From positions 1-45,446 of IMG/VR virus record IMGVR_UViG_3300032783_000004: a stretch of DNA of 45,446 nucleotides. One strand, 5' to 3'. Source of the stretch: a virus. The notes below the pieces were generated by a model. The model made no database searches. It was given only the letters and a program-made list of their open reading frames with translations, and was not told the origin of the DNA. A program made the translations under genes and the position numbers. Within the stretch, counting starts at the first letter, position 1, and each line of letters begins with the position of its first letter. Positions 7,009 to 43,371 of this stretch are shown here, piece by piece.

Positions 7009-7212
7009 TCATGTATGGACGTTGGAAGAAATCCTAAAACTTACCTGAGCGCCACAATCTTCTGCTGGCTCTATCTTTAGTATTTCCTCTTTACTTGTCT
7101 TGAACGGGAGCTGCCTCGGCAGGGATTTCATCAGGTTTTTTACCAGCGGCGCATTCTTCCGAATGTTCTCCCGCCTTATCGTCTCCAGTCTTTTCATTAT
7201 TTCCTTGTTCAT
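7009..7212 (-). CDS. possible small gene overlapping the protease 3' end (67 aa)
   Basis: A basic protein beginning 'MNKEIMKRLETIRRENIRK', out of frame with the last 40 codons of the serine protease gene and extending 82 nt past its stop. In favour: AAAGAGGTG about 5 nt before the ATG, and a protein-like helical N-terminus. Against: the overlap of about 120 nt. The overlapped protease tail is low-complexity (Glu/Lys/Ala/Pro), which would leave room for a second frame. No family recognised. Confidence 0.35.
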   Translation of the reverse strand: MNKEIMKRLETIRRENIRKNAPLVKNLMKSLPRQLPFKTSKEEILKIEPAEDCGAQVSFRISSNVHT

Positions 7213-11311: not shown

Positions 11312-11485
11312 ATGTCCAGACTATCAAAAAGTGGAAGGGAAATGGTTCTGTTGGAAGCAGCGATAGAATATTGTCTACAAAATCACATACCTATTCAAGT
11401 GTTTTTGGCAGCTGTCAGGCTTGGAGACATCCGTGTATATGATCAAGACGGTAATGAGATAGCACCATTGGATGTAAAGGCTTAG
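11312..11485 (+). CDS. small hypothetical protein (57 aa)
   Basis: Begins 'MSRLSKSGREMVLLEAA' and ends 'GNEIAPLDVKA'. ATG 11312 follows GTGGAG and lies 5 nt after the previous stop. The longer version of this frame would overlap the previous gene almost entirely. The 'IPIQVFLAAVRLGDIRVYD' part reads like a small helix-turn-helix or nucleotide-associated fold, but I cannot assign it. Confidence 0.55.
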   Translation: MSRLSKSGREMVLLEAAIEYCLQNHIPIQVFLAAVRLGDIRVYDQDGNEIAPLDVKA

Positions 11486-11563
11486 ATACTGCTGTATGGA
11501 ATTATCAAGACTTAAAAAACATTGATACTACAAATTTATTTTAATAAAGAAAGGGAGGAAGGA

Positions 11564-12358
11564 ATGCAACTATTCAAACCAAAAGAACTTATGGCATCAG
11601 CGGGTGATATGATGATGCTCTACTCCGATAGTGGGGTAGGCAAATCGGTTACTACAATTCAAACAGCGCCAGACCCTATCATTTACATTATGGCGGAAGG
11701 TAGAGACGTCACTAAGATGTTGGCCGCGGCCCAACGTCCAGACGTGAAAATTGCATTTGGCTTCTACTCTACTTTCGATGATCTAATTGAAACAGTTCTC
11801 ACAGATCACTTCTTTGAGGGAGCAAAATCCGTTGTTCTTGATTCGCTTACGCACATTATGGGCATCAATCTATCTGATGAAATCGTTGAAGAATCCTATG
11901 AAGCAATGGATAAAAACAAGATTGACAAAACCCTTACCATGCGGGTTAAAATGTCCCAGGAAGGCTACGGTACTTTAGGTGGACAGATGCTTCGTTTGAC
12001 CAATGCCTTAACCAAATTATCATCGCAGGGTATGGTGGTTATCTGCACGGCCCGAGCAGAATCAGCCCCGAAATTTAATCGTTCTCTGGCAGCAGCCCCT
12101 GCACTTAAAGGCCGAGAGTATCTTAAATACTTTGCCGGCTTTTTTGATTTCATCGGTTATTGTGAACCACGTATCATAGATGGCAAAGTCATCTACCCGC
12201 CTTATGTCTCATTCCAAGATGATGGTTCGTTCATGTCTAAATGGACAGGTATTATGCCTGAAGGTGGGGTGTTTAAGCGTATACTTAATATCCAGAAGAT
12301 ATTACAGGTTGCACACGGAAAGGGGGTGATAAAGAGTGAAGAAGAAAAAAGTCAATAA
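11564..12358 (+). CDS. RecA-like AAA ATPase, Sak4-type
   Basis: 264 residues. ATG 11564 was preferred over 11522 because GGGAGGAAGG stands right before it. Walker A is 'SDSGVGKS' (about 24-31) and the Walker B region is 'AKSVVLDSLTHIM' (about 88-100). 'GMVVICTARAES' gives a sensor-like strand. The short length, the RecA-like core and the position two to four genes before an SSB/DUF669-like protein fit the Sak4 group of phage ATPases that help single-strand annealing and recombination. Fe-S nuclease, Sak4 and the SSB-like protein together form a coherent recombination module. The exact family needs a profile search. Confidence 0.7.
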   Translation: MQLFKPKELMASAGDMMMLYSDSGVGKSVTTIQTAPDPIIYIMAEGRDVTKMLAAAQRPDVKIAFGFYSTFDDLIETVLTDHFFEGAKSVVLDSLTHIMGINLSDEIVEESYEAMDKNKIDKTLTMRVKMSQEGYGTLGGQMLRLTNALTKLSSQGMVVICTARAESAPKFNRSLAAAPALKGREYLKYFAGFFDFIGYCEPRIIDGKVIYPPYVSFQDDGSFMSKWTGIMPEGGVFKRILNIQKILQVAHGKGVIKSEEEKSQ

Positions 12359-12623
12359 ACCAAAGGCCCGGGCGGTTGAACCAGAAATACCGTTACCTTT
12401 GCCCTTCTTCGGTATTATGAAATATAGATGGGTCAGGAATTATTTGCAAGCCGATTACTTGAGGGCTACCTTCCTTGTGGCTGAAGCATTTCCTGGATAC
12501 CATATCCGGAAAGACCGGAGTGACAAGGGCACTAAGAAAAAGGATCTTCTAACCCCGGCGGAAAAAAGAATTAAAGATGCACAAACAAATTTATCCCTCA
12601 CGGAAGGAGACGGTTTATCATGA
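12336..12623 (+). CDS. basic hypothetical protein (95 aa), GTG start
   Basis: GTG start at 12336 preceded by AAGGGGGTGAT; it overlaps the ATPase by 23 nt. Starts with a run of Lys (MKKKKVNKPK) and contains 'YRWVRNYLQADYLRATF'. The basic composition suits nucleic-acid binding, but no domain is recognised. Confidence 0.6.
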   Translation: MKKKKVNKPKARAVEPEIPLPLPFFGIMKYRWVRNYLQADYLRATFLVAEAFPGYHIRKDRSDKGTKKKDLLTPAEKRIKDAQTNLSLTEGDGLS

Positions 12624-20525: not shown

Positions 20526-20718
20526 TATTTATAAACAAGCTGGCAACTGTATAATCTTAACAGAGGTCGAAAAGAAGAAGAAGCCATCGGTCTGGATCTT
20601 TCTTAACGATCCTCATTCCGTTACTAGCTTCCAGAGCATGGGACAGCATGGATACTTAACCGGTCAAGCAAAGAAAGTTTATGAGGTGATGCGAAATGGC
20701 GGCCAAAGGCGCACATAA
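20506..20718 (+). CDS. hypothetical protein within the sugar cassette (70 aa)
   Basis: ATG 20506 behind GAGG, overlapping the glycosyltransferase by 20 nt and the next gene by 23 nt. Begins 'MPTTLYDIYKQAGNCIIL'; later 'VWIFLNDPHSVTSFQSMG'. No family recognised; tight overlaps support it as real. Confidence 0.5.
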   Translation: MPTTLYDIYKQAGNCIILTEVEKKKKPSVWIFLNDPHSVTSFQSMGQHGYLTGQAKKVYEVMRNGGQRRT

Positions 20719-21349
20719 AGTTACGGCAGATTTTGAAAAAGCTCTGGCAGAATATACAGGGGCCCCATATGTGGTTTGTGTTGATAATTGCAGCAACGCT
20801 TTGTTTTTAGCATTGATGCACTATGGCATCAAAAACAAGGCAATATACATACCGGCCAACACCTATCCTTCTGTTCCCTGCGAGATAGTCCATGCAGGGG
20901 GGAAGGTCGATTTCTTTGCACCAAGGAAAGATGGTCTGTTAAGGGGGGCTTATCAATTATGGCCCACGCCCGTATATGACAGCGCATTAAGATTTACGTG
21001 GCAGATGTATAAGCCGAATACCTACATGTGCGTTTCGTTTACTGGCGCTAGAAAGATATTAAAGCTGGAAAAGGGTGGGGCTATTTTGACCGATGATAGA
21101 GTGGCTTATGAATGGTTCAAGAGAGCTCGATTCAGTGGTAGGCGTGAATGTTCATATCATGAGGACGTTTTCAATTTCGAGACATCTGGCTGGAACTTTT
21201 GGATGATGCCATCTATTGCAGCTCGCGGGTTGATGATGATGGAACAGTTATATGATTTTAATGGTACACCGCTAGACGTACCAGATCTTGAATTACCATA
21301 TCCGGATCTGTCACGAGCGGAACATACTATGTGGAGGGCAGCAAAATGA
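20696..21349 (+). CDS. short DegT/DnrJ/EryC1/StrS-type aminotransferase
   Basis: 217 residues, about half to two thirds of the usual 370-400. 'VVCVDNCSNALFLALMHYG' and 'YIPANTYPSVPCEIVHAGGK' match the PLP-binding region. 'CVSFTGARKIL' then 'KGGAILTDD' corresponds to the S-F-x-x-x-K-x-L...GGA strand that carries the PLP lysine. The C-terminal small domain is largely missing, and the stop overlaps the next ATG, so the truncation is built into the operon. These enzymes aminate nucleotide-linked keto-sugars. Next to a hexapeptide acyltransferase this recalls the FdtB/FdtC or VioA/VioB type pairs for N-acylated amino-sugars. Confidence 0.7.
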   Translation: MAAKGAHKVTADFEKALAEYTGAPYVVCVDNCSNALFLALMHYGIKNKAIYIPANTYPSVPCEIVHAGGKVDFFAPRKDGLLRGAYQLWPTPVYDSALRFTWQMYKPNTYMCVSFTGARKILKLEKGGAILTDDRVAYEWFKRARFSGRRECSYHEDVFNFETSGWNFWMMPSIAARGLMMMEQLYDFNGTPLDVPDLELPYPDLSRAEHTMWRAAK

Positions 21350-21882
21350 AAATAGGTAAAAATTGTAAAATTAGTGACAAGATCAGTGTGTATGGTGGAG
21401 ACAATATAGAAATAGGTGACAACACGCGCATTGATGATTTCTGTATTCTGTCAGGCGGTAGTGGTATCCAAATTGGATCTCATGTGCACCTGGCTCCATA
21501 CTGTTCTCTATTCGGTGGTTCTGGCATTATCTTTGAGGACTTTGTCGAAATCGCAGCCTATAACTATTTCACTTCTGAATCAGATGATTTTTATGGGCAC
21601 TCTTTGGTTGGCCCTACGATTCCGCGGCAATTCAAGCCCGAGGGATATAAACAGGGGCAGATCATATTACGCAAACATGTTCTTATGGGCGCCCGTTGCG
21701 TTGTTTTCCCGGGCGTGGAAATAGGCGAAGGAGTTTCGGTAGGCGCCTGTTCATTGGTGAATAAGGATCTTAGGCCTTGGACGATTTATGCCGGCATTCC
21801 TGTGCGGCCTCTCGGCAATCGCAGTAAAGACATGTTGAAATTGGAAGAAACGTTTTTGCAATGGTATAGTCAAAAAAAATAG
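21346..21882 (+). CDS. hexapeptide-repeat acyltransferase (LbH, WbbJ-like)
   Basis: 178 residues from ATG 21346 (ATGA overlap; a GTG at 21331 is less likely). Left-handed beta-helix hexapeptides run through about residues 3-70 ('IEIGDNTRIDDF', 'IQIGSHVHLAPY') and again near 120-150 ('LMGARCVVFPGVEIGEGV'). 'GIPVRPLG' near the end is the typical A-G-x-P-A-x-x-I/L-G closing motif. Such enzymes transfer acetyl groups from acetyl-CoA to sugars. It probably works on the product of the preceding aminotransferase. Confidence 0.8.
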   Translation: MKIGKNCKISDKISVYGGDNIEIGDNTRIDDFCILSGGSGIQIGSHVHLAPYCSLFGGSGIIFEDFVEIAAYNYFTSESDDFYGHSLVGPTIPRQFKPEGYKQGQIILRKHVLMGARCVVFPGVEIGEGVSVGACSLVNKDLRPWTIYAGIPVRPLGNRSKDMLKLEETFLQWYSQKK

Positions 21883-25830: not shown

Positions 25831-26670
25831 TCAATCATCATTGAGTTCATCTTCAAACAATTCTGGCTCATAGTCTTTAATCTGTTCTTTGCAGGTATAA
25901 CACAACCTGCCTTTTTCTTGGTGTTCTTCGTGGCATAAATGGCAATGTTTAATGTCGGTGATCGGATCAATATTACACTCGTCCAGGTGCCCATACGATG
26001 TTGACAAATCAGCGCAATCCATGCCGATTGGATACATCTCGATTGTTTCTATTTTGCTGCGGTGGTTGTAATTGTCAAAAGTATACCAGGAGATCGTCTG
26101 TAAATAACTAATATTGGAATAATGACAACCATCGTCAATCGTCCAGGAGCCGCCGTACAACAATACTTGACCGGACTTGTGCATGATTGCCCATTTGCTA
26201 TTGGTGGCAAGTTCTATCAAGGCTTGGATTGCTGGTTGTTTTAAGCGCTTGAAAGAGAGGTCAGCCATAACCTCTTTAATAAATATCATTGTATCTGAGA
26301 GGTGTTTATGCCTGGGCAGATCAAGAATAATCCCGTTATGTGCTACTCCTGTGTCCCCAGCTATGTTCAAAGCAATCAACTTTTGTGGGTTTTTGCATAA
26401 TATAAAAGGGTGAGTGTTGCCAGCGGCCTTTTCCCCGTGGGTTGCTAATCTAAAGTGCAGGATCATAGCCGTGTCTTTAATATTGATCCGCTTTTCAAGG
26501 CTCCATAAAGCGGCCATAAGTTCGGGCAGTTTCATAAAACCTTTTTCGATCATAACATAGTTGCCATCTGCATACATAAAACCTGCCCCATCTCCATTGT
26601 TAGCAAAGCAAGTTTTTAATCGTCCGTATGGCATGTCTACGCCTTGTGGCTTATGGATTATTATGCACAT
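25831..26670 (-). CDS. class-II glutamine amidotransferase-like Ntn hydrolase
   Basis: 279 residues. 'MCIIIHKPQG' places Cys2 as the N-terminal nucleophile after Met removal. 'ILHFRLATHGEKAAGNTHPF' and 'DTGVAHNGIILDLP' are the R-x-A-T-H-G...H-P-F...HNG motifs of class-II glutaminase (GATase) domains, which release ammonia from glutamine. A C-terminal zinc ribbon (CHLCHEE...CYTCKEQ) is added. The start overlaps the end of the amidoligase by 10 nt with AGGGAGG inside that gene, so the two are translated together. Pairing of amidoligase and GATase-type proteins is known from comparative genomics. The product of this pair is unknown. Confidence 0.8.
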   Translation of the reverse strand: MCIIIHKPQGVDMPYGRLKTCFANNGDGAGFMYADGNYVMIEKGFMKLPELMAALWSLEKRINIKDTAMILHFRLATHGEKAAGNTHPFILCKNPQKLIALNIAGDTGVAHNGIILDLPRHKHLSDTMIFIKEVMADLSFKRLKQPAIQALIELATNSKWAIMHKSGQVLLYGGSWTIDDGCHYSNISYLQTISWYTFDNYNHRSKIETIEMYPIGMDCADLSTSYGHLDECNIDPITDIKHCHLCHEEHQEKGRLCYTCKEQIKDYEPELFEDELNDD

Positions 26671-28145
26671 GATGCTGCCTCCCTTCTCACTTCGGGTTGA
26701 ACCTGCGCTGGCTGGCGTGGCGGAATTAGGTTTTTACCTTCTGCATAAACGCGCAATGCAGGATATTTGTCTTGTGCTAATACCTTTTCCAAGAGTTCGG
26801 CAAAAGTCTCAATTTTTGCAATTTGTTGAATAGAATGATTCTTGATATACCTTACGAGGCCATCTACCCATTCCAAACAAGCGTATATAGTCGAGGTCTT
26901 CAATGTCCCCCTAAAGGCTCTAAATTCGATAGTTGCCCAGGGTGTTACGTTAACAGCCATATATCTGTCAGTGTGGTGTTTATAACCTTCAATGTAGGTT
27001 TGTTTAAGTTTCGGTTTCGCAAAACAAAGTACAGATTTGCAATATGTGTTATAATCTCGCCTGTTGAAAGTTACCAATTCGTCAACAAATTTGTCATAGA
27101 GGTATAAGAGTTTTAACACATGCAGATCAATAATCTTGTTTGAATCCCCTAAGAAATTCTTATTGACATGGATATGCAAACCACAATTATCGGTGCTATG
27201 GCTTTTATATCCCTGCTCTCTGCATAGGTTTGTAATTTTGTCCCAATTAAAATGTTCCCTGTGATAAGCAAGTGTCGCGGGATGGTTTTTAATTTCAAAC
27301 CCAACATCTGTCAGTGATCCGTCTGCGGTAAAAATCAAGTTTTGATCATCAACGTCTAATAGAGCATCAATAAGCTGCTTTGTATTTCTCCCCCCATCAA
27401 CTTCTAATTCTATACCAAGATATAAGGGTGCCCGTCCCGTCTGCATCATGTGTCTTGATTCGTTTGCCGTTTGCAAAAAATTGTAATATAAAGGTTTCCA
27501 ATTGTGATGATGGATGCAGTCATGTTGCCATTGTACCGGATCTCGTTCTTCTTCATTATCATCTTCATCATCTTCATCTTCGTTTCCGTCAATGCACTCT
27601 TCTTCATGTGTAGGAAGGCAACCAGCACATACATTAACATGGCATAAAGAACATGTACGTGCATCCTCAAGAAAATAATAGGTTTCGCACGAGTGACAGG
27701 AAAATGTCACATTTTCAAAGCAAGTAGGACACACGAGGGTGCCTTCAACCTCATAAAAATCATCACCTCTTATATGCAGGTTGCATATGCCGCATTTATA
27801 AAAAAATTGTTCAAGGCATGAAATGCATATGAGGGCGTAACCTTGCCTCCGTATATGAACATTCGTCATGTCTGCTTTCAGCATTTCAATTTGGCAAATG
27901 TCTTCTTTCAGCATTTCAATTTGGCAATTCTCACACATGCCGACATGGTGTGAAAAACAACTGTCACAAAAAACCTCTTTTTGGAACATTTTTCCGTTTG
28001 GTCGCTTACCGGAAGTCCTTGTTGTATCGCCGCAAACCGAGCAAACCTCCAAAGCCAAGTCAAGTTGTTGTGATATTTGCCACTTTGTGATGGTAATATC
28101 TAGGGTTTCCAAATCCGATAAGTCTGAGTGTTGTTCTTCTTCCAT
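26661..28145 (-). CDS. amidoligase (Amidoligase_2 / COOH-NH2 ligase) with N-terminal zinc-ribbon tandem
   Basis: 494 residues, behind AAAGGAG. Residues about 30-195 hold four or more C-x2-C clusters (CSVCGD, CDSCF, CENC, CISCLE, CGICN, CPTCFE, CHSCE, CSLC), followed by a very acidic linker. The C-terminal part starts 'APLYLGIELEVDGG', then 'ADGSLTDVGFEI', 'STDNCGLHIHVNK', 'HTDRYMAVNVTP' and 'TIEFRAFRGTLK', matching the amidoligase family related to gamma-glutamylcysteine and glutamine synthetases. It could join amino acids or modify a peptide or protein. It includes a recent 30-bp tandem duplication. First large gene of the minus block. Confidence 0.8.
   Translation of the reverse strand: MEEEQHSDLSDLETLDITITKWQISQQLDLALEVCSVCGDTTRTSGKRPNGKMFQKEVFCDSCFSHHVGMCENCQIEMLKEDICQIEMLKADMTNVHIRRQGYALICISCLEQFFYKCGICNLHIRGDDFYEVEGTLVCPTCFENVTFSCHSCETYYFLEDARTCSLCHVNVCAGCLPTHEEECIDGNEDEDDEDDNEEERDPVQWQHDCIHHHNWKPLYYNFLQTANESRHMMQTGRAPLYLGIELEVDGGRNTKQLIDALLDVDDQNLIFTADGSLTDVGFEIKNHPATLAYHREHFNWDKITNLCREQGYKSHSTDNCGLHIHVNKNFLGDSNKIIDLHVLKLLYLYDKFVDELVTFNRRDYNTYCKSVLCFAKPKLKQTYIEGYKHHTDRYMAVNVTPWATIEFRAFRGTLKTSTIYACLEWVDGLVRYIKNHSIQQIAKIETFAELLEKVLAQDKYPALRVYAEGKNLIPPRQPAQVQPEVRREAASCA
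27871..27930 (-). repeat. 30-bp tandem duplication in the amidoligase zinc region
   Basis: CTTTCAGCATTTCAATTTGG plus three more identical bases occurs at 27875 and 27905 with a period of 30, adding a 10-residue unit (CQIEMLK-x-D-x) and one extra Cys. Confidence 0.8.
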
Positions 28146-30068: not shown

Positions 30069-30296
30069 ATGCCGATGACAACTCCACGGGAAAAGTTACA
30101 ACGGATGCTACACCCTATGTGTGCAGAAGACTATGGGTTGTCGATCACCATTGAAGAATTGAATGGATTTCCTGAAGGTAAGGAATTTTTGGACACCCAT
30201 TTTGTCACATATGTAAAAGCCTTCGGGGAGTGTATGTTAAGGCACAAAAACAAACGAATTGAAAATACCGGGAGCGAACCCATGAAGATTGGCTGA
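30069..30296 (+). CDS. hypothetical protein (75 aa)
   Basis: Start at ATG 30069 (or 30075); the frame is open further upstream but would overlap the previous gene with unlikely sequence. 'TTPREKLQRMLHPMCAEDYG' and 'GFPEGKEFLDTHFVTYVKAF' are helical. It overlaps the large terminase start by 8 nt. No family recognised. Confidence 0.5.
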   Translation: MPMTTPREKLQRMLHPMCAEDYGLSITIEELNGFPEGKEFLDTHFVTYVKAFGECMLRHKNKRIENTGSEPMKIG

Positions 30297-31743
30297 GACA
30301 ACAATAAAAACCTACCGCATCGAATACGACTATCGTCACGTTCCTACTATCCGTGATTTTGCCTTGGATAATTCACGTATTCGTGGCATTATGGGACCAT
30401 TTGGTTCCGGGAAGTCTTCGGGCTGTGTCCACGAATTGATACGCAGGGGGCATGAGCAACTTCCGGATCGGGATGGCGTTAGGCGTACTCGATGGGCGGT
30501 GGTAAGAAACAGTTATCCGCAGCTTCGTGATTCCACCATCAAGACATTCCATTATTGGTACCCTCCCAAGGTATGCGGCGAGTACCGATCCACAACTCAT
30601 GATTATATCATTGATTGCTTTCCCCGGGTTCAGATTGAAATAGCCTTTCGGGCTCTTGATCGAGAAGAGCAAATATCAAACCTCCTCTCTGTTGAATACA
30701 CCGGCGCCTGGGTTAATGAAGCCCGGGAAGTTCCATATTCAATTATCGAAGCTCTTGATGGCCGTATTAACCGTTACCCACCCCGTCCCGAAGGCATAGG
30801 TGGTGCAACGTGGGCCGGCATCATTATGGATACGAACCCACCGACAAAAACCTCTTGGTGGTACCGTTACTTTGAACTCAATCGTCCAGGAAACGCCCAG
30901 ATTTTCAAACAGCCATCCGGTTTATCACCCAGGGCAGAAAATTTAGCAAACCTTGCGCCAGATTATTATCAAAACTTGGCAAAAGGTAAGGGCGAAATGT
31001 ATATTAGGGTTTATGTCCATGGTCAGTACGGATATACTCTCGAAGGCAAGCCGGTCTTTCCAAGTTTTAAGGACAATGTCCATTGTGCTACGCATAAACT
31101 CTCACCCCTTAAAGCTATTCCTCTTATCTGCGGAATGGATTTCGGGCTCAATCCGTCAGTTGTTATCGGTCAGATATCTCCCCGCGGACAACTGTTAATC
31201 TTGGACGAGCTCACATCTAACGGTATGGGGCTGAAGCAGTTCTGCCGGAATCAACTACTCCCCTTACTCCAATCTGATCGTTACCGTGGTTTCAAACTCA
31301 CTGGCTATGGCGATCCCTCTGGTTCCAACCGTTCACAGACTGACGAATCAACCTGCTATGACATCCTGCATTCCAACGACATCGGCCTCAACTATATTAT
31401 CGAAGCGCCAACGAATGCGATCATCCCTCGTATAGGGGCAGTGGAACATTTTCTCAACACTATGGTTGATGGGGCACCGGCGTTTGTCCTCAGCCCCCAT
31501 TGTGCAGATCTCCGTGAAGCGCTGAATGGCGGATACCATTACAAGAAGATAGCTGGTACTGAAGACAGTTATATGAATGAGCCGGATAAGCGTGGGTATC
31601 TGTCGCATATAGCTGATGCTTTAATGTATATGTGCATGTATGTCAGTCAAAAAAGAGAAGACGACGAGCGGTATAAACAGTTCAGGGCTCAGATGGCTGG
31701 CAAAACTGTCCATCAATCAGGTGATGGCATAACAGGAATGTAA
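30289..31743 (+). CDS. terminase large subunit (DNA packaging ATPase/nuclease), TTG start
   Basis: 484 residues. Walker A 'MGPFGSGKSSG' (about 35-45); Walker B 'YTGAWVNEAREV' (near 137-148) with the catalytic Glu; motor C-motif region 'GIIMDTNPPTKTSWW'. The nuclease domain has 'CGMDFGLNPSVVIGQ' (near 281), 'GYGDPSGSNRSQTDE' and 'GYLSHIADALMYM', giving the metal-binding acidic residues of the RNase H fold. TTG start follows a weak GAAG site and overlaps the previous gene, so it may rely on coupling. It drives headful or cos packaging into the portal encoded two genes later. Confidence 0.93.
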   Translation: MAETTIKTYRIEYDYRHVPTIRDFALDNSRIRGIMGPFGSGKSSGCVHELIRRGHEQLPDRDGVRRTRWAVVRNSYPQLRDSTIKTFHYWYPPKVCGEYRSTTHDYIIDCFPRVQIEIAFRALDREEQISNLLSVEYTGAWVNEAREVPYSIIEALDGRINRYPPRPEGIGGATWAGIIMDTNPPTKTSWWYRYFELNRPGNAQIFKQPSGLSPRAENLANLAPDYYQNLAKGKGEMYIRVYVHGQYGYTLEGKPVFPSFKDNVHCATHKLSPLKAIPLICGMDFGLNPSVVIGQISPRGQLLILDELTSNGMGLKQFCRNQLLPLLQSDRYRGFKLTGYGDPSGSNRSQTDESTCYDILHSNDIGLNYIIEAPTNAIIPRIGAVEHFLNTMVDGAPAFVLSPHCADLREALNGGYHYKKIAGTEDSYMNEPDKRGYLSHIADALMYMCMYVSQKREDDERYKQFRAQMAGKTVHQSGDGITGM

Positions 31744-31754
31744 GAGGTGTGACG

Positions 31755-31958
31755 ATGGATCTTATAGCAGCAATCCAAGGATATTTCTCAACAGGCGGCT
31801 TGCTTACCCTTTGCCCGGCAGGATCGGCATGCTGGCCGGCCATCACAGATCCGGTGGTTGAATACCGAGCCCAGGACAGCGATCTTTTAGAATATATAGG
31901 ACACGATATCGAGAACGTGAGCAATAATTATAAATTACCGAGAAGGGAGAGGGCTTAA
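31755..31958 (+). CDS. hypothetical protein (67 aa)
   Basis: ATG 31755 behind AAGAGGTG. Overlaps the next gene by 1 nt (TAATG). 'MDLIAAIQGYFSTGGLL' then 'LEYIGHDIENVSNNYKLP'. Similar in style to small tail-completion-like proteins but not assignable. Confidence 0.5.
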   Translation: MDLIAAIQGYFSTGGLLTLCPAGSACWPAITDPVVEYRAQDSDLLEYIGHDIENVSNNYKLPRRERA

Positions 31959-34846
31959 TGTTCAAATCAGTTTCCATTTATGGTTCATTTAATGCAGTAA
32001 CCGGCTATGGCATTCATCTCACCAATTTTGTCAGAGAATTGGAAAAACTCATTCCCGTCATCCGCAACAAGCCAGGCGGTGAAGTGAGTATCAGCCTTCT
32101 CGACAGTGTCAGTGTCCAATACGTTAAAACTGCATGCCCGTTTCCATCTATCCTTTACAACGTCTGGGAATCAACCCGGCAGCCAGACAAATTCATGGAG
32201 AATTGTAAGAAGTTTTATCATCAACTCTGGGTACCCTCCAAGTGGCAGAAAAAATATAGCGTTGAGCAGGGGTTAGAGGATTCGTTTGTGAAGGTGGTGC
32301 CAGAGGGCGTTGACCCGGAGAAATACCAACCATTCTTATATGACAAGGATACTTCTGGACGTTTGCCAGAACCTATATTTAATTTCCTGATAGTGGGTAA
32401 ATGGGAAGACCGTAAGTACACCCGGGAAATGATTCGGGCGTGGCTTGATGCATTTCCAGAGGATAAATTCCCCTATCTTCGTTTGCATGTGAAGGCCGAC
32501 AACCCTTTTCCCGTGGACCAGTATAAAACCACAGAGCAGCGCCTTAAAGCCTATGGGTTAGAAGACAAGCGTATCATCCCCGTTCACTTCGAGAGCCAGG
32601 AATCACACATCAAGCGGCTTCAGGCAGCCGAAGTATATTTATCCTGTTCCCGTGCTGAGGGCTGGAATTTGCCATTGATTGAGGCTTTGGCTTGCGGCAT
32701 TCCTTCCATCGCACTCGATTGGTCCGGCTCTACAGAGTTCTACCATTTCACTAACCTTCTGGTCGGTGTGGAAAAGCTCATTAAGCCATTCAACGTTTAT
32801 GGCCAGCCTAATTGCCCTGGCCAATGGGCCGAGCCGAACTACCAAGATCTGAAAGACACCATCAGTGAAGTCTACGAGAAATATTCTTTTTATAAAAAGC
32901 AAGCCTTGGCGATTTCCACTGAAACCCGTGAGGAGTTCAGCTGGGCCCAGGCAGCGAAGAAAGCCTATGCGGAATTGGAAGAATTATACAAAACCATAGC
33001 TCCCAAAAAGATCATCTGTGAAATTTCCACAGAGGGTGTAAAAGAGACAACGGATGTTGTAAATAACACAATGTTCAGCCATGAAGGAAAGACACGCATT
33101 CTGCCAGATCAAGACATCTTTGTTGTCGGCGCATGGCCATCATCCCAGGACCGTATGCAGACCTTAATTGAAACAATCAGCCAGATCAAGGCGCTTGGTT
33201 ATCCTGTGATGGTATCATCTCATTATCCACTTCCCGCGCCGGTTACTGAATCCGTGGATTACTATATTTTTGACAAGGAAAATCCTTTGTCTGACGATTG
33301 GAAACTCACATACTACCGTCAAAATGAACAGGGAGAAATGGAAGCCCGTAAAGGTAACAAGCCGTACCATGCCGTTGCTTGCCTCACCGCCATGCGCAAT
33401 GCCATTGACTTCTGTAAAGGTAAATTCAGACGCATGTATTATATGGAATTCGACCTTGAGGTAGATCTTCCGGCTTGGTTGGAAAAAACAAAAGATGCAG
33501 ATGGGATTTGTTTGATAGATTATCAAGGGACTGGTTATCGTTCAGACTTTTTTGCAGGTCCTATAGATTTGTTGGATAAGGTCTTCCCGCGGATACGTAA
33601 TTGGAATGAATATTCCGCCTATTCAACTGAGAGCGGGTTTATTTTAGAAAATTGGATCAAGCAATACTGGTCAGATTATTACAAAGATGTCCCTATCACC
33701 ATGATTGAAGATATCTTACTTGGCAATCGTTTCGACCAAGTTGAGCGTGATGTCTGGGGCGATGATGTTTTTTTATGCCATTTTGTTGAGGGTCCATACT
33801 TACAGGTCAATGGAATGTCTAATCGTACATATCAAGTTTCTTTTACCACTCCTGAAGATGGCGTTATCTATCGTGCAGAAGCTAAATGCGGCACTTGGGT
33901 CCGGCCTTCAATTAAGTTCTTCCGTGAATGGCAAATTGAAGCCAAGCATGAAAATGAGGTGAAATTTTCTCATCAATTTGATGCAGAAAATCAGCGTGTC
34001 TTAATCTCTATGGGTTCCAAGGCTTTGGGCGATAATCTTGCCTGGGCGCCATATCTTGAAGAATTCCGTATGAAGCATAAATGCCATTTAATCGCTTCAA
34101 CATTTTTTAATGGCATGTTCGATTATCCTGAGTGGGAATTGGCTGAACCAGGGGATACTATTAAGAATCTCTATGCATCATTCGAGGTAGGCTGTTATGA
34201 TGGTCAGCTAAATAAAAATCCAACCGACTGGCGCTTAGTTACCCTTCAGCAAATAGCCACAGACATCTTAGGGCTTCCTTATGTTGTAAGAAAACCTAAG
34301 CTCAAGATCCCCGATACGCCCCGTAGAGTGGAAGGCAAGTATATTTGTTTTTCTGAGTTTTCAACCATGCAGCCCAAGCTCTGGAACAAGGAAAACGCAT
34401 GGCAAAGAACTATTGATTACCTTTGCTCATTAGGGTATAAATGTGTAGCTTTGGGAATGGAATCAAGCAAATTACAGAATATCATTAAACACCATGGCCA
34501 GACAATTGAAGAAAGCATTACCGACCTCCTCTACTGTGACTTTTATGTAGGCTTGGGTCACGGACCTTCTTGGCTCGCCTGGGCATTGGATAAGCCGGTT
34601 GTAATGATTTCCGGCTTCTCGTTGCCACTTGCGGAATTTGAAAATCCATATCGTGTCATTCGTACTAATGTTTGCCATGGATGTTTCAATGATCCAAAAG
34701 TAAAATTTGACCGCGGGTGGGAATGGTGTGAGAGAAAAATGTGGCAAGGTAAAAAGGTGCAGCGTTATGAATGCACCAGGAAAATCACCCCTGATATGGT
34801 GATAAAAACAATTGATCAGTTGAGGGCCGACTATAATCTGATATAA
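31958..34846 (+). CDS. three-part glycosyltransferase: GT4 domain plus TibC/BAHT-type O-heptosyltransferase domain
   Basis: 962 residues, between large terminase and portal. Residues 1-350 are a GT4 domain: 'GSFNAVTGYGIHLTNFVREL', 'WVPSKWQKKY', 'VVPEGVDPEKY', 'SRAEGWNLPLIEALACGIPS' (E-x7-E, near 232-251). A middle part (about 380-650, 'VVGAWPSSQDRMQTLIETI') I cannot name. From about 670, 'VLISMGSKALGDNLAWAPYL', 'RLVTLQQIATDILGLPYVVR', 'YVGLGHGPSWLAWALDKPV' and four cysteines (906, 909, 924, 939: VCHGC, EWCER, YECTR) match autotransporter strand-loop-strand O-heptosyltransferases (TibC/Aah), whose cysteines bind iron. Those enzymes glycosylate Ser in repeat proteins. A role on virion proteins is inference from context. 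Confidence 0.8.
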   Translation: MFKSVSIYGSFNAVTGYGIHLTNFVRELEKLIPVIRNKPGGEVSISLLDSVSVQYVKTACPFPSILYNVWESTRQPDKFMENCKKFYHQLWVPSKWQKKYSVEQGLEDSFVKVVPEGVDPEKYQPFLYDKDTSGRLPEPIFNFLIVGKWEDRKYTREMIRAWLDAFPEDKFPYLRLHVKADNPFPVDQYKTTEQRLKAYGLEDKRIIPVHFESQESHIKRLQAAEVYLSCSRAEGWNLPLIEALACGIPSIALDWSGSTEFYHFTNLLVGVEKLIKPFNVYGQPNCPGQWAEPNYQDLKDTISEVYEKYSFYKKQALAISTETREEFSWAQAAKKAYAELEELYKTIAPKKIICEISTEGVKETTDVVNNTMFSHEGKTRILPDQDIFVVGAWPSSQDRMQTLIETISQIKALGYPVMVSSHYPLPAPVTESVDYYIFDKENPLSDDWKLTYYRQNEQGEMEARKGNKPYHAVACLTAMRNAIDFCKGKFRRMYYMEFDLEVDLPAWLEKTKDADGICLIDYQGTGYRSDFFAGPIDLLDKVFPRIRNWNEYSAYSTESGFILENWIKQYWSDYYKDVPITMIEDILLGNRFDQVERDVWGDDVFLCHFVEGPYLQVNGMSNRTYQVSFTTPEDGVIYRAEAKCGTWVRPSIKFFREWQIEAKHENEVKFSHQFDAENQRVLISMGSKALGDNLAWAPYLEEFRMKHKCHLIASTFFNGMFDYPEWELAEPGDTIKNLYASFEVGCYDGQLNKNPTDWRLVTLQQIATDILGLPYVVRKPKLKIPDTPRRVEGKYICFSEFSTMQPKLWNKENAWQRTIDYLCSLGYKCVALGMESSKLQNIIKHHGQTIEESITDLLYCDFYVGLGHGPSWLAWALDKPVVMISGFSLPLAEFENPYRVIRTNVCHGCFNDPKVKFDRGWEWCERKMWQGKKVQRYECTRKITPDMVIKTIDQLRADYNLI

Positions 34847-34859
34847 GGAGGAATAAGGA

Positions 34860-37016
34860 ATGCAACCAGAAAAACCATCAGTAGATACTTTCATAGCTGG
34901 CAGAAGAGTTAGGCCCACAACACCCGACGAAAAAGATAAGATTAAGGAATTGTTTGCCGAATATGACAACCTTGAAAAACGAGATAAGGATGGCATGAGT
35001 GTTGACGAACGTCTGTCTACATTCGGTCAGCTTCTTTGGCAATATTGGGAAATCAACCGAGCTTTCAGGCGGCCAAAGGAACTTGAGTGGCTCGAATCGC
35101 TTCGTCAGTACAAGGGACTTTATGATCCTGAAATTAAGATAACTCCAGGTCTTTCCAGGGTTTATCCTAAGATCACCCGGTCAAAAGAAAATCAGATTTT
35201 GTCCCGTCTTATGGAGATGCTTTTCCCCGAGCAAGACAAAAATTGGGAAATTACTCCATCTCCTAATCCGCAGCTCCTCCCGGAAATTGTTGCAAAGATT
35301 GCGCTTTCCTTAATCACAAAAGATGAAAATGGCGAACCAGTTGTCCCCACCCGGGAAGAATTACAGCGTGCCATTATGAAATTTGCCGAAGCCCGTTGTG
35401 AACAAATGAGTATTGTCATTGATGGCCAGCTTGAGGAAATGAAGTATCAGGAAGAAGTTAAGAAAGTCCTCCGTTCCGGCATCCGTTATGGCACAGGGCT
35501 GATGAAAGGTCCGCTAATCCATAAGCGTGAATCCCGCGAATGGGTGCCCAACGTTCATAGCGGCGAGTACCGTGAAAACGTCAAATCTGAAGATGTACCC
35601 TATAAGGAACACACTCGCATTTGGGATTTTTATCCCGACATGTCCACCACGGAGCCTGAGCAGATGGATGGCTGCTTTGAACGTCACGTTTTTACCAAGC
35701 ATGATCTGCGACAATTGATGAAGCGCACGGATTTCAACGCTGACGTAATTCGTGACTATATGAAGGAGAACCCTGATGGTGATTATACACCAGAGGATTG
35801 GGAGGTCGATCTGCAAGCGATTGAGATCGAAGCCGGTACCGGAAAGGAAACTGCCGTATCTGGTTCCCCCGCATCCACCCGCCAGGCTTTTGGTTATCTT
35901 CGCAAACTCGGTAAAAAGTACATCGTCCTTGAATTCTGGGGATATGTCGATGGCGAAGATCTATCAGCTTGTGGCGAAACGGTAGACAATCCTGAACTTG
36001 AACATGGCGCCAATGTCTGGGTGATGGGTAAACGCATCATTAAAGCCAAGCTCTATGAACGTGCTTTGGAAATGTATAATTTCTTCTATTATGAAAAAGA
36101 CGAAACATCAATCTTTGGTGAAGGTCTTCCTCGTATCATTCGCCACAGCCAGTTGGCCATCGCTGCCGGCGCTCGTAAAGTACTCGATGATGCAGCAGTT
36201 ACCGGCCCACAGATCGAATGCAATTATAACCTCATGGTCCCCGGGTCAGATATCTCCGATGTCTATTCTCGTAAAATCTGGTACCGTGAAGGCCGCGGGG
36301 TTGAAGCCCAATATCCGGCAGTCCGCATTGTCAATATTGAACCTCACACACAAGAACTATTTACTATCGTCAAAGAGTTCAAAGGTTTTGCAGATGAAGA
36401 AAGCTGTCTACCTTCCTGGCTCTTAAATGACAAAAGCGCCAATGTTACAGCTCAGGCTGATTCCGGTGTACGCAGGGATATGATAATCCCCATCAAGGAC
36501 ATCGTTAAAAATTTCGATGCTTTCACCGAAAAAAATATTCGTGACCTTTATTATTGGAACATGGATTTCAACGATGACGAAAACATCAAAGGCGATTACT
36601 TAGTGAAGGCTCGTGGGGTAGGTTCTCTTGTAATGAAAGAAATCCGCATGCAAGCCCTTACACAAATGACCGGTACGCTCACAGACGAAGAACGCAAGTA
36701 CATTCCTTGGAGGGAATTCCTTGAGGAAAAAATGAAAGCCCACGACATCAATATCCAGCTCAAGACTGATGATGATGTTGCTAAAGAAGAACAGGCTAAA
36801 GTCGATCAGAGAGCTAAAGAACTTATGTATAAGGATGCGGAAGCCGAAATCGCCAAGAAGAACGCTCAGGCCCTTATTAACATAGCTAAGGCGAAAGAGA
36901 AAAACACGCAGGTCGGTCACATGGATGAATTGCACGATGTTGATATGGCCGGTAAGAAAATGGATGTTGCGCAAAAGATGGTTGATACAACCAGTAATGC
37001 ATATGGGGGTGAGTAA
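34860..37016 (+). CDS. portal protein (P22-like size)
   Basis: 718 residues, behind AGGAGG. The pattern of a helical N-terminus, 'ITPGLSRVYPKITRSKENQI', 'FPEQDKNWEITPSP', 'RSGIRYGTGLMKGP', 'TRIWDFYPDMSTTEPEQMDG', 'NFFYYEKDETSIFGEGLPR' and a long charged C-terminal coiled coil ('AKEEQAKVDQRAKELMYKDA') is typical of podovirus-type portals. Forms the dodecameric ring at the vertex through which DNA is packaged and ejected. Position after terminase and before scaffold and capsid supports it. Confidence 0.85.
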   Translation: MQPEKPSVDTFIAGRRVRPTTPDEKDKIKELFAEYDNLEKRDKDGMSVDERLSTFGQLLWQYWEINRAFRRPKELEWLESLRQYKGLYDPEIKITPGLSRVYPKITRSKENQILSRLMEMLFPEQDKNWEITPSPNPQLLPEIVAKIALSLITKDENGEPVVPTREELQRAIMKFAEARCEQMSIVIDGQLEEMKYQEEVKKVLRSGIRYGTGLMKGPLIHKRESREWVPNVHSGEYRENVKSEDVPYKEHTRIWDFYPDMSTTEPEQMDGCFERHVFTKHDLRQLMKRTDFNADVIRDYMKENPDGDYTPEDWEVDLQAIEIEAGTGKETAVSGSPASTRQAFGYLRKLGKKYIVLEFWGYVDGEDLSACGETVDNPELEHGANVWVMGKRIIKAKLYERALEMYNFFYYEKDETSIFGEGLPRIIRHSQLAIAAGARKVLDDAAVTGPQIECNYNLMVPGSDISDVYSRKIWYREGRGVEAQYPAVRIVNIEPHTQELFTIVKEFKGFADEESCLPSWLLNDKSANVTAQADSGVRRDMIIPIKDIVKNFDAFTEKNIRDLYYWNMDFNDDENIKGDYLVKARGVGSLVMKEIRMQALTQMTGTLTDEERKYIPWREFLEEKMKAHDINIQLKTDDDVAKEEQAKVDQRAKELMYKDAEAEIAKKNAQALINIAKAKEKNTQVGHMDELHDVDMAGKKMDVAQKMVDTTSNAYGGE

Positions 37017-38859: not shown

Positions 38860-39058
38860 TCCATACACCCCCTAAAGCAACCCCTGATTGTGATATTTCG
38901 CAGTTGGGGGTTGTGACATCTCACAAACTGGATACTTTTTATCCACCTTCCTTGCGATATTTCACAATTTTCTTGACTTTTTCACAAAAACGTGCTATAT
39001 GACCGCCATAAAATAGTCGTGTCCTATTTCGGGACACACTTGTTCTTTGGAGGTTTTT
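38860..39058 (+). promoter_or_regulatory. control region before the capsid genes, with promoter and operators
   Basis: Contains CAACCCC/GGGGTTG (38878-38913, possible weak hairpin), GTGACA (38913-38918), the palindrome CTGGATACTTTTTATCCA (38928-38945), the promoter TTGACT (38973-38978), 17 nt, TATATG (38996-39001), and GTGTCC-N7-GGACAC (39019-39037) just past the expected start site. 'GATATTTC' also occurs twice (38892, 38956). A regulated second late promoter for scaffold and capsid is likely. Confidence 0.65.
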
Positions 39059-40069
39059 ATGGCGAATCCTACTGACAGAGGGGCGGCAGGTGAAGACAAT
39101 AGTTCTTTGGAAAGTATCGAAATCTTTAGTAATGCGTTTGATGAAGCTACGGGAGAGGGCACATCTGGGACAGACGGAACATCCGGGGTAGCGACCGGAG
39201 ATGTTTCTGATTTCAAAGGTGAGCTTCCCGAGAATTCAGACACTACGCAGTCCACTATGGGGACCCAGGCAGTATCCGGCACGGCTGGAACTTCTGGGAC
39301 GGTGTCAGCTGACGATGAGAAGGCTGAACAGAAGTACCGAACACTTCAGGGTATCCTCAAAGCGGAAAAAGATAAGTGGGAGCAAGAAAAGGCTGTACGC
39401 GATGCTGAAATAGAAAGGCTAAGGGCAGCAGGAACAGCTGGCAGGGCAACTCAAACTCAGACCTTTGACGATCCTTATATGAATTTGTCGGAAGAGGACA
39501 AGAAGGCCTTAAAAGAATACGATACGGAATATGACACGGTATCCAAGTTTGAGGCAATCAAGCGCAAAGCTGAATTAGCTGCTTTAGAAGGTAAACTGAC
39601 AACCAGCATCCGTAAAGAGTTTCAGGAGGCTTTTAATTTCCTTATTCAGTCAATGGCCCCTGTTCTTTCCACCACAGAGCAAATTTCTGATGAACGACAT
39701 TTTGGCGCCATCAAAAACAAGCATGCAGACTTTGAAAAATATCGTGACGATGGATCTATTGAAACCTGGATCAACAGCAAGCCGAAGTACCTTCGGGACG
39801 CATACGTTAGTGTTTATAACGATGGTTCTGCCCAGGACATCATAGATTTGCTCGACACGTTCAAAAAAGAAAATAACATCGGCCCCCCGGTTGTGACTGA
39901 CGCGGCTGGAACGGCTGGTACTTCTGCTGACCTCAAGCATGACAAGGAGAAAAAGAAAGAAGCCCTAGCTGGCGTACATTCTAAGAGAACTCCTACGAAT
40001 TATAGCCAGCTTGACAAAGACGATTATGCTGGGGCATTCGATGAGGCAGCGAAGAAATTATCAACTTAA
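39059..40069 (+). CDS. scaffolding-like protein with Gly-Thr-Ser repeats
   Basis: 336 residues from ATG 39059 (TGGAGG; an upstream TTG is less likely). Acidic N-terminus with repeats at about 33-43 (GEGTSGTDGTSG), 73-82 (SGTAGTSGT) and near 281-289 (AGTAGTS). A charged coiled-coil middle ('LKAEKDKWEQEKAVRDAEI') and helical C-terminal part are typical of phage scaffolds encoded just before the capsid. Repeats use different synonymous codons each time, which points to selection at the protein level. Confidence 0.65.
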   Translation: MANPTDRGAAGEDNSSLESIEIFSNAFDEATGEGTSGTDGTSGVATGDVSDFKGELPENSDTTQSTMGTQAVSGTAGTSGTVSADDEKAEQKYRTLQGILKAEKDKWEQEKAVRDAEIERLRAAGTAGRATQTQTFDDPYMNLSEEDKKALKEYDTEYDTVSKFEAIKRKAELAALEGKLTTSIRKEFQEAFNFLIQSMAPVLSTTEQISDERHFGAIKNKHADFEKYRDDGSIETWINSKPKYLRDAYVSVYNDGSAQDIIDLLDTFKKENNIGPPVVTDAAGTAGTSADLKHDKEKKKEALAGVHSKRTPTNYSQLDKDDYAGAFDEAAKKLST

Positions 40070-41120: not shown

Positions 41121-41771
41121 ATGACGGATACTTTACTGTATAGCAACACAAAGAAATTTGACGATCCGGCAGTAACTCAGGATGCTGCTGTGAAACGGGT
41201 CGATAAAGGTTTTGAGATGGAGGCAATGCGAAGAGCACTTGCCAGCATCACAAACAGGGTCATTCCTACCTCAGCGGGTGGGACGACAGGCACCGGGTAT
41301 GAGCTCACCGCAGGTTTGGCAGCTGGTTCCGCAGTTGGTTCCATTAAAGCGGCCAACACCTTCAAATATACTATTGATGGCGTGATGTATCAGTACACCG
41401 GAAATACCGACATTGCCATCGCAGGTTCTCTCGGAAACGGTACACAGGGTACAGCCACCACCTGTTATTACCTTGTCAGCGTTGGCACCAATGGCACCAG
41501 CGGGACAGCACTTGCCGGCAATGGCGGTCTGTACGTAACAAAGGGCAATGAAGGGACTTCGGGGACCGGCGTGTTTGCTTATGCGCTCAATTCCACCCCG
41601 TATCTACCGGATTGTCCTGATGGGCAGTGTCCGATAGGGTATTTTTCGGTGATCACAAAAACCACCACACCTTTTGTTCCCGGTACTTCAACGATGGGAG
41701 ATTCGACAAACTTTACCATCGCCTATGGCGATTTGATAGGGATGCCGATTTTCAAGTACGCTGAAGACTAA
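41121..41771 (+). CDS. capsid-associated protein with Gly-Thr-Ser repeats (possible decoration protein)
   Basis: 216 residues, behind AGGAGG, directly after the capsid gene. A helical N-terminus ('EMEAMRRALASITNRVIP') leads into a beta-rich body with 'GGTTGTGYEL', 'VGTNGTSGTALAGNGG' (about 121-136) and 'GNEGTSGTGVFAY' (about 142-154). Position after the major capsid protein and the beta-rich, Gly/Thr-rich composition suggest a head-surface or head-fibre protein. Confidence 0.5.
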   Translation: MTDTLLYSNTKKFDDPAVTQDAAVKRVDKGFEMEAMRRALASITNRVIPTSAGGTTGTGYELTAGLAAGSAVGSIKAANTFKYTIDGVMYQYTGNTDIAIAGSLGNGTQGTATTCYYLVSVGTNGTSGTALAGNGGLYVTKGNEGTSGTGVFAYALNSTPYLPDCPDGQCPIGYFSVITKTTTPFVPGTSTMGDSTNFTIAYGDLIGMPIFKYAED

Positions 41772-41854: not shown

Positions 41855-42238
41855 ATGGCTAAAGATGCAAAAGAGGGCGTAAAGCCAGAAGAAAAACCAA
41901 AGGTCGAAAAGTTTATCAATCCGCAGGGGCACATCCGGGATAGGATTATTATGCACCAGACAGCTGATATCCCTAAACAGGGTGCATTTATTTCACTCAA
42001 TGGTTATGCTTTCCAAGCGAAGCCCGGGGAGGCAATCGACATCCCTCGTCCTGTGCGAAAGATGATTGATCTTTGTGTCATCACGGAAATTATTCAGGGT
42101 ACTGATGAAAAAGGTAACTCTGAAGAATATACTCGTAACCGGCCCCGTTATCCCTATACTCTTGTCGCTGAAGATATAGAGCATCCGGATTCTCCATGGG
42201 CAGGTGCTAAACAAGCAGAAGTGGAGGCTCAGGCATAA
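41855..42238 (+). CDS. hypothetical structural-region protein (127 aa)
   Basis: Behind GGAGG. N-terminus charged; 'INPQGHIRDRIIMHQTADIP' and 'FISLNGYAFQAKPGEAIDIP' form a beta-rich middle; C-terminal helix. In N4-gp56-type phages a small protein of this kind follows the capsid. Function unknown. Confidence 0.55.
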   Translation: MAKDAKEGVKPEEKPKVEKFINPQGHIRDRIIMHQTADIPKQGAFISLNGYAFQAKPGEAIDIPRPVRKMIDLCVITEIIQGTDEKGNSEEYTRNRPRYPYTLVAEDIEHPDSPWAGAKQAEVEAQA

Positions 42239-42239
42239 A

Positions 42240-42980
42240 ATGATAGGCCAGGATCTCGTAGACGAACTGCGGGAAAGTTATCTTGACGATAAACAGATTC
42301 CATATCGCTGGCAGGACCTTGAGCTTCTAAAAAATTGTATTCGTGCTGAAGTACAGGCATGTAGACGAGCATATCTTATCATTGACAAGACCACCGTCGC
42401 TGATGGGACTGACGGTACATCTGGTGATCCTATATGCCAGTTGACTGTTGTTCCTAATCAAGCAGCTTATACGCTCAGCAAAAAAGTCCTGCAAGTTGAA
42501 CGGGTAAAACTCGATGGCATGAGTACACCATTGCGTCCACGTACCCGCGATGAACTCGATGCTCTTACGTATCAATGGGATGTTACCCTTGGGACGTCCG
42601 GCACTTTTGGAACTGCCGGTGGTGACATTGTTGTATGGCCACAATGGTTTATACACGAAGCCAATAAAGAGTTAGTTTTAGTCAAGACGCCTACCGTTAA
42701 TAGCGTTGCAAGATTAGTCGTATCCAGGCTGCCGCTTCAAGAATTTACATTAAAAACTGAACCAGAAATAGAGGAACAGCACCATGACGGATTGCTTTTA
42801 TGGGCCGCTCATCTTGCTTTTCTCAAACCTGATTCTGACACTCAAAACATAGACCTGGCAGCAGTTTATGATAAGGCATTTACAGACAGATTCGGACCAA
42901 TGCCTGATGCTTATTCCGAAAAGATGAGGAAGATGCTTCCTCGTCAACAGCGAATGAGACCCAGGCCATTTGGTAGTTAA
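42240..42980 (+). CDS. head-tail adaptor-like protein (DUF6682-type) with Gly-Thr-Ser insertions
   Basis: 246 residues from ATG 42240. N-terminal helices ('DLELLKNCIRAEVQACRRAY'), a beta region ('QAAYTLSKKVLQVERVKLDG'), and 'EFTLKTEPEIEEQHHDGLLLW' with 'LAFLKPDSDTQN' match adaptor proteins of podovirus-like phages. Two short repeats sit at likely loops: DGTDGTSGD (about 55-63) and LGTSGTFGTAGG (about 117-128). Confidence 0.6.
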   Translation: MIGQDLVDELRESYLDDKQIPYRWQDLELLKNCIRAEVQACRRAYLIIDKTTVADGTDGTSGDPICQLTVVPNQAAYTLSKKVLQVERVKLDGMSTPLRPRTRDELDALTYQWDVTLGTSGTFGTAGGDIVVWPQWFIHEANKELVLVKTPTVNSVARLVVSRLPLQEFTLKTEPEIEEQHHDGLLLWAAHLAFLKPDSDTQNIDLAAVYDKAFTDRFGPMPDAYSEKMRKMLPRQQRMRPRPFGS

Positions 42981-42994
42981 TAGGAGAAAATCAC

Positions 42995-43174
42995 ATGGCT
43001 ATCGTAAGACAAAGAAGATTAGAAGAAGACCTTATCTATCGTAGAACTACTGAGTTGCCCAGAAAATTTGGTTCGGATGGTACTTCAGCAGCTGCCGGCA
43101 AAAGCGGTACAAGTGCGGTATCGGGGTCATCTGGGTCATCCGGCTCGTCCGGTAGTTCAGGCACAGGCGCATAA
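42995..43174 (+). CDS. small Gly-Ser-repeat protein, paralogue of the next gene (59 aa)
   Basis: TAGGAG before the ATG. 'MAIVRQRRLEEDLIYRRTTE' resembles the N-terminus of the next gene (I-x-R-x-R-x-L-E-E-D-L...T-x-E-L). After residue 27 come 'SDGTSAAAGKSGTSAVSG' and SGSSGSSGSS-type repeats. The two lie 14 nt apart, a tandem duplication. Probably virion-associated by context. Confidence 0.65.
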   Translation: MAIVRQRRLEEDLIYRRTTELPRKFGSDGTSAAAGKSGTSAVSGSSGSSGSSGSSGTGA

Positions 43175-43188
43175 GGAGGAAATACATA

Positions 43189-43371
43189 ATGGTTATTAAA
43201 AGAATAAGACAACTTGAGGAAGATTTGCTTAACCAGACTACAATTGAGTTATCCGCGGTTGCCGGTACGTCGGGGACTTCTGGCAGCTCCAGCACCTCCG
43301 GATCGTCAGGGACAGCAGGATCATCCGGTACTTCGGGTTCATCTGGAACAAGCGGAACTTCACATCCATAA
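43189..43371 (+). CDS. small Gly-Thr-Ser-repeat protein (60 aa)
   Basis: Behind AAGGAGG. 'MVIKRIRQLEEDLLNQTTIE' (helical, probable docking part), then 35 residues of Gly-Thr-Ser, Gly-Ser-Ser and Gly-Thr-Ala triplets, e.g. 'AGTSGTSGSSSTSGSSGT'. The triplets are spelled with many different codons. The Gly-x-y periodicity is collagen-like. Ser/Thr density would make it a good O-glycan acceptor. Confidence 0.7.
   Translation: MVIKRIRQLEEDLLNQTTIELSAVAGTSGTSGSSSTSGSSGTAGSSGTSGSSGTSGTSHP

Follow-up and report, generated by a model that had tools for sequence, protein, structure and literature searches.

A three-domain phage glycosyltransferase with a TibC-type domain, and the pairing of its relatives with Gly-Ser/Thr-Ser repeat proteins

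Glycosyltransferases (GTs) of the TibC/AAH type (bacterial autotransporter heptosyltransferases, BAHT; PDB 4RAP and 4RB4; profile family TIGR04414) put heptose on adhesins, next to which they are normally encoded in bacteria; they combine a beta-barrel with a GT-B catalytic domain and carry four characteristic cysteines. WaaC and WaaF of family GT9 share the catalytic GT-B fold but act on the core of lipopolysaccharide (LPS), unlike the TibC branch. In mycobacteriophages, GTs encoded by the phage have been connected with glycans that decorate capsid proteins (Freeman 2023, cited in PMC11256854); the reported acceptor is the major capsid protein and not collagen-like repeats. Collagen-like phage proteins are likewise already known (PMC3368898). 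Here we describe a GT gene from a virus (IMG/VR record IMGVR_UViG_3300032783_000004, positions 1 to 45,446; this whole stretch of 45,446 bp is called the window), which joins a TibC-type domain to two further GT domains in one open reading frame (ORF):

31958-34846, plus strand: three-domain glycosyltransferase gene (GT4, GT-A-like, TibC-like), 962 amino acids (aa)
31958-33052, plus strand: GT4 domain (GT-B fold), residues ~1-365; PF20706, PF00534, PF13692 and phrog_2170
33083-33787, plus strand: middle domain of predicted GT-A fold, residues ~376-610; AlphaFold2 model, structural matches and ~50 homologous ORFs
33794-34846, plus strand: TibC/Aah-type domain, residues ~613-962, beta-barrel and GT-B catalytic domain; TIGR04414, AlphaFold2 model and structural match
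34673-34774, plus strand: iron-finger cysteines C906, C909, C924 and C939; alignment with TibC

The ORF is intact, and its ATG at 31958 has close upstream of it GGGAG, which resembles a ribosome-binding site. We consider it somewhat more probable than the alternatives taken together that the product is a modular phage enzyme, made with the structural block, that O-glycosylates virion proteins of the phage itself at their collagen-like Gly-Ser/Thr-Ser segments. A comparable protein is found in the cultured Microcystis phage Mel-JY01, a phage of another kind (190 kb): WWT39291.1, annotated as 'methyltransferase FkbM', unites GT4, middle and TibC domains in one chain of 1226 aa, differs in a methyltransferase-like stretch before the TibC part, and is encoded in a region that holds S/T-G repeat proteins.

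The C-terminal domain matches TIGR04414 over positions 27-373 of 374 with 243 bits (cut-off 200; E 4.8e-72) and the PDB sequence of TibC at 1.2e-46, so that a chance match to the TibC family is excluded. Its AlphaFold2 model, built on 49 sequences (rows from annotated phage records were left out of the alignments used for structure prediction), has a predicted local distance difference test score (pLDDT) of 92.7. Among solved structures TibC (4rb4/4rap) matches best: model residues 3-363 align to its residues 21-393 with Z 41.0, a root-mean-square deviation (rmsd) of 2.1-2.2 and 31% identity over 351 residues, the N-terminal beta-barrel and the GT-B catalytic fold both being present. GT9 proteins match this model less well (Z 18.6-21.1), and WaaC and WaaF (Z 18.6-19.4) align to the catalytic part only, from model residue 80 onward, without beta-barrel and iron finger. 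The first-pass annotation, made from the letters alone, had placed the C-terminal 300 residues in the autotransporter O-heptosyltransferase family; profile and structure both bear out that placement. Residue equivalences, taken from the TibC roles in PMC4358343 and from alignments to TibC and its relatives, show that most catalytic residues are kept: the catalytic base D110 of TibC corresponds to D692, and the donor contacts T226, K230 and W305 to T803, K807 and W872. Cys339, 342, 358 and 370 of TibC align with C906, C909, C924 and C939, exactly the positions that the annotation had named, and the four cysteines are invariant in the 49 aligned relatives.

Other features depart from TibC. Its adenine-contacting Arg286 is replaced by S853 (Ser or Thr across the clade of the window), its Pro300 by G867, and the beta-hairpin thumb, which TibC needs for its ring and which bears F265 and V266 at its hydrophobic tip, is absent: the alignment shows a deletion of ~9-10 residues, and the AlphaFold2 model places a single short strand, with no hairpin, at this position. 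The thumb loop is variable in the wider family, since it is longer in some relatives (e.g. the loci L020, L092 and L098). In TibC the substitutions F265D and V266D yield dimers that are inactive on TibA (PMC4358343); by analogy, a dodecameric ring is unlikely for the phage enzyme, which must then use another assembly, unless the thumb loss reflects a different acceptor. Thus, of the structural expectations of the first-pass annotation, the iron finger is borne out in its four cysteines and the dodecamer interface is not, and the name BAHT fits the phage domain by fold and type of chemistry but not by ring, because the thumb is absent and Arg286 is Ser. The score above the TIGR04414 equivalog cut-off could be read as the mark of a true BAHT that was captured from a bacterium and still heptosylates a host autotransporter adhesin. 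We regard this as very improbable, given the loss of thumb and Arg286, the position of the gene in a phage-lineage clade that has a GT4-middle fusion of its own, and the bacterial relatives described below, which adjoin repeat proteins with export-signal-like starts. A Pfam scan of the larger ORFs of the window showed no autotransporter family.

The N-terminal domain is a GT4 enzyme by its matches to PF20706 (4e-11), PF00534 (1e-8; 35 bits, cut-off 26.4) and the glycosyltransferase family phrog_2170 (4.7e-28), and contains an EX7E motif at E234-E242. Phage GT4 proteins of phrog_2170 and of Streptomyces phages (24-26% identical to this domain) match the GT4 part only. The best Pfam match is 'GT4-conflict', which is compatible with a GT domain that glycosylates phage DNA against restriction, a role proposed generically for phage GTs (PMC10202952). 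Such a role is hardly credible here, as the C-terminal domain belongs to a family of protein O-glycosyltransferases, the gene lies in the late structural block, and no genes for modified-nucleotide synthesis occur among the window ORFs scanned.

The middle domain had been described as ~270 residues matching nothing recognisable. This stands for profiles, as residues ~376-610 have no match in Pfam or PHROG, and fails otherwise, since homologues, fused or alone, occur in ~50 ORFs of related phage GT loci and the AlphaFold2 model (pLDDT 87) has a GT-A (nucleotide-diphospho-sugar transferase) fold. The model matches mannosylglycerate synthase 2bo7 (Z 13.5, rmsd 3.6, 173 aligned residues) and, at Z ~13, cellulose synthase, B4GALNT1 and WrtF; some further matches are nucleotidyltransferases that share the GT-A fold. 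Two positions, D499 and E564, are invariant in the alignment; D499, examined as a possible DXD motif, is invariant in 29 sequences; the window reads D-L-E at this place, and the second acid is not conserved. A separate copy of this domain (371 aa) is encoded in L005, the locus of the nearest relative, at 11366-12481, downstream of the portal gene.

Foldseek matches of the middle domain include 6tez and 6fxm of the PLOD/LH3 collagen glycosyltransferases (PF25342), which share the GT-A fold. LH3 acts on hydroxylysine of animal collagen, unlike the acceptor proposed here, and the window protein has no PF25342 match. A PF25342 domain is, however, part of a 2,255-aa protein in the related phage locus L018 (4244-11011), which strings together GT4, methyltransferases, GT_PLOD, DUF6625, FkbM and TibC and ends 1 bp ahead of a repeat ORF; a collagen-type GT with an adjoining repeat ORF fits the idea of a collagen-like acceptor.

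Proteins with (Gly-Ser/Thr-Ser)n repeats were found near TibC-like genes in 41 of 80 viral loci (the best-scoring ones, including some near-duplicates), compared with one of 49 loci from random contigs, which are shorter on average (Fisher 4e-10). In 16 viral loci the repeat ORF lies at most 170 bp from the TibC-like gene. The reverse test gave a similar result: among 50 contigs picked by a (GTS)4 DNA pattern 11 contained TIGR04414, as against none of 49 random contigs (p 5e-4). The pattern is no effect of composition, because a version with permuted codons found no match in the collection that yielded at least 120 for (GTS)4; the control contigs were therefore drawn by a random 16-mer.

The same pairing recurs on chromosomal-looking contigs from several gammaproteobacterial lineages and from a Schekmanbacteria metagenome-assembled genome (MAG). 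A genome scan with the TibC alignment alone returned 15 contigs, 11 of them bacterial-looking with a stand-alone TibC-like gene. In the whole genomes behind these 11 (2.3-9.2 Mb), G-S/T-S tracts were few and concentrated among the matches listed, and in 10 of the 11 they lay near the TibC-like gene (nine at ~0.06-2.2 kb and G121 at 5.7 kb); G114 has them 17.5 kb away on the same contig, contig identity being derived from coordinates compared against the loci. Judged by eye, the bacterial repeat proteins begin like lipoproteins or with signal-peptide-like stretches, followed by GTS or GSS tracts. As repeats played no part in the selection of these loci, no other evidence bears as strongly on the acceptor as their clustering. 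The genes are present in Methylobacter sp. BlB1 and Methylomicrobium sp. RS1. In three gammaproteobacterial loci (L089, L091, L094) a conserved protein of ~280 aa with the N-terminal motif HLIxALxRLLRPLxRxLLxxGFTY is encoded before the TibC-like gene. It seems to us an even chance that enzymes of the TibC type make up a wide-ranging O-glycosylation system for collagen-like Gly-Ser/Thr-Ser repeats, with autotransporter heptosylation as just one, thumb-bearing branch; many phages would use it to put sugar on fibres and other proteins of the virion, and bacteria on exported repeat proteins.

Possible acceptors are also encoded in the window itself, downstream of the GT gene:

39047-40069, plus strand: structural ORF of the scaffold region with GTSGT-type motifs, candidate acceptor; five motifs, 0.015 expected from shuffles
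41121-41771, plus strand: ORF of the structural block with three GTSGT-type motifs
42204-42980, plus strand: structural protein (phrog_399) with GT-rich segments
42995-43174, plus strand: 59-aa ORF with a C-terminal (G-S/T-S)n tail, candidate acceptor
43189-43371, plus strand: 60-aa ORF resembling the preceding one, with a (G-S/T-S)n tail, candidate acceptor

The structural block (1,901 aa) contains 12 GTxGT motifs, the rest of the window (10,322 aa) none. The GT-rich segments of the phrog_399 protein differ in length and position among relatives, as would be expected of surface loops.

As to acceptor, sugar, order of action and purpose, we infer the following scheme. The enzyme would be produced late, together with the structural block, and its TibC-type domain would prime Ser or Thr of Gly-Ser/Thr-Ser tracts in virion proteins. 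The sugar would be heptose or one related to it, taken from a nucleotide donor that the host makes. Extending or diversifying the glycan would probably fall to the GT4 and GT-A domains; the glycan might serve to stiffen or stabilise fibres, to mask the particle, or in adhesion.

Several observations weigh against glycosylation of the phage's own repeat segments. With the adenine contact Arg286 replaced by Ser, the donor may not be ADP-heptose, and rfaE/HldE domain II, of ADP-heptose synthesis, has no match in the records of the window's lineage (another relative has a single match below the cut-off, in its 343-kb record). The repeat proteins of the window are short, and 8 kb separate them from the GT gene upstream. 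Many of the random control contigs are isolate prophages, so that their ecology is unmatched. Finally, ~78% of the repeat-bearing viral contigs, many of them fragmentary, have no TibC-like gene, and hence the repeats do not always accompany the enzyme. This last point, and the hypervariability of fibre islands (PMC10202952), would also suit a real but indirect link, in which both genes belong to an exchanged, variable tail-fibre island and another virion protein is the acceptor. Such an arrangement appears distinctly improbable in view of the same pairing on chromosomal-looking bacterial contigs.

The gene lies among genes for packaging and head formation:

30289-31743, plus strand: terminase large subunit (TerL); phrog_2 at 5e-29, PF04466 weak
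31749-31958, plus strand: 69-aa ORF, kept in L005, whose stop overlaps the start of the glycosyltransferase gene
34860-37016, plus strand: portal or head-tail connector; phrog_332 at 3e-18, 71% identical in L005
40087-41091, plus strand: major capsid protein; phrog_1357 at 1e-54

TerL upstream and the portal-type connector downstream thus flank the fusion of TibC/Aah-type domain and GT4, and the annotation of such a fusion in the packaging region was correct. An assembly chimera was considered and rejected, because L005, whose GT protein is 62% identical over its whole length, keeps the order TerL, GT, portal. An enzyme that, in the course of infection, adds sugars to LPS, capsule or a surface protein of the host, and so blocks superinfection or re-adsorption, would agree with a review that reads GT clusters of jumbo cyanophages as modifiers of outer polysaccharides (PMC7824862) and with the kinship of the TibC fold to the LPS heptosyltransferases. 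We nevertheless hold this to be unlikely, as the gene is placed within the head/tail block in the window, in L005 and in relatives, the domain shares beta-barrel and iron finger with the TibC branch, which acts on proteins (Z 41 as against ~19 for WaaC), and the pairing with repeat proteins is strong.

The initial impression that the gene is out of place in a phage did not hold. While a single-protein query of viral records found nothing, an alignment query returned relatives in at least 587 IMG/VR viral stretches. Among 36 full-length relatives, GT4 is present in 29, PF01075 is reached by 30, and FkbM-type methyltransferase domains occur in eight. The clade of the window, with the order GT4-middle-TibC, is a starred group of our tree with 100/100 support. 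A search of whole records from 12 lineage members recovered the gene in six, including all five records >40 kb; the remaining six, which gave no match, are fragments of 12-38 kb. Within the lineage only the window and L005 carry the gene between TerL and portal. In L007, L009 and L010 it follows the head and tail genes, the norm in the lineage being a place beside tail/fibre genes. The many viral relatives and the lineage clade rule out an isolated host gene captured by a single phage. The window is probably a fragment of a larger phage genome, since related records reach 66-73 kb. Two members of its clade, L085 and L086, bear titles of MAG contigs from Deltaproteobacteria and Nitrosotalea, but both contain phage structural genes that belong to the window's lineage; L087 and L096, titled Thermoplasmatales and Pacearchaeota MAG contigs, look phage-like, and all four titles are probably binning errors.

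The TibC-like phage family has already been annotated automatically, as a phage protein bears the name 'Glycosyltransferase Aah/TibC' in BFVD/UniProt. In the literature searched we found no paper mentioning TIGR04414, none that pairs an O-heptosyltransferase with a virus, and none that joins phage virion glycosylation, phage collagen-like proteins and TibC-like enzymes. What is new is the combination of domains, the missing thumb, and the statistical association with G-S/T-S repeats in phages as well as in bacteria. If the proposed function is correct, a large and as yet unassigned class of phage GTs would gain an acceptor and a purpose; it would also suggest how collagen-like phage stalks of Gly, Ser and Thr could stay stiff or soluble, and would extend the TibC family beyond virulence adhesins to repeat glycosylation in general. 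It is directly testable, as the cultured Mel-JY01 and the named bacterial strains carry the genes.

Three other places in the window deserve mention. An Amidoligase_2 protein (26661-28145, minus strand) overlaps the protein of 25831-26670, which resembles class-II glutamine amidotransferases by a weak match; these genes (25831-28145, minus strand) are possibly a pair for peptide or cell-wall modification. At 7091-8077 (minus strand), beside plus-strand genes, lies a ClpP-like SDH-type serine protease (PF01972; phrog_21683). At 20696-21882 (plus strand) a short DegT/DnrJ aminotransferase-like ORF, 63% identical in other phages with a TibC-like gene (L060, L063, L064, L071 and L084), is followed by a second ORF with 37% identity in L060 and L071.
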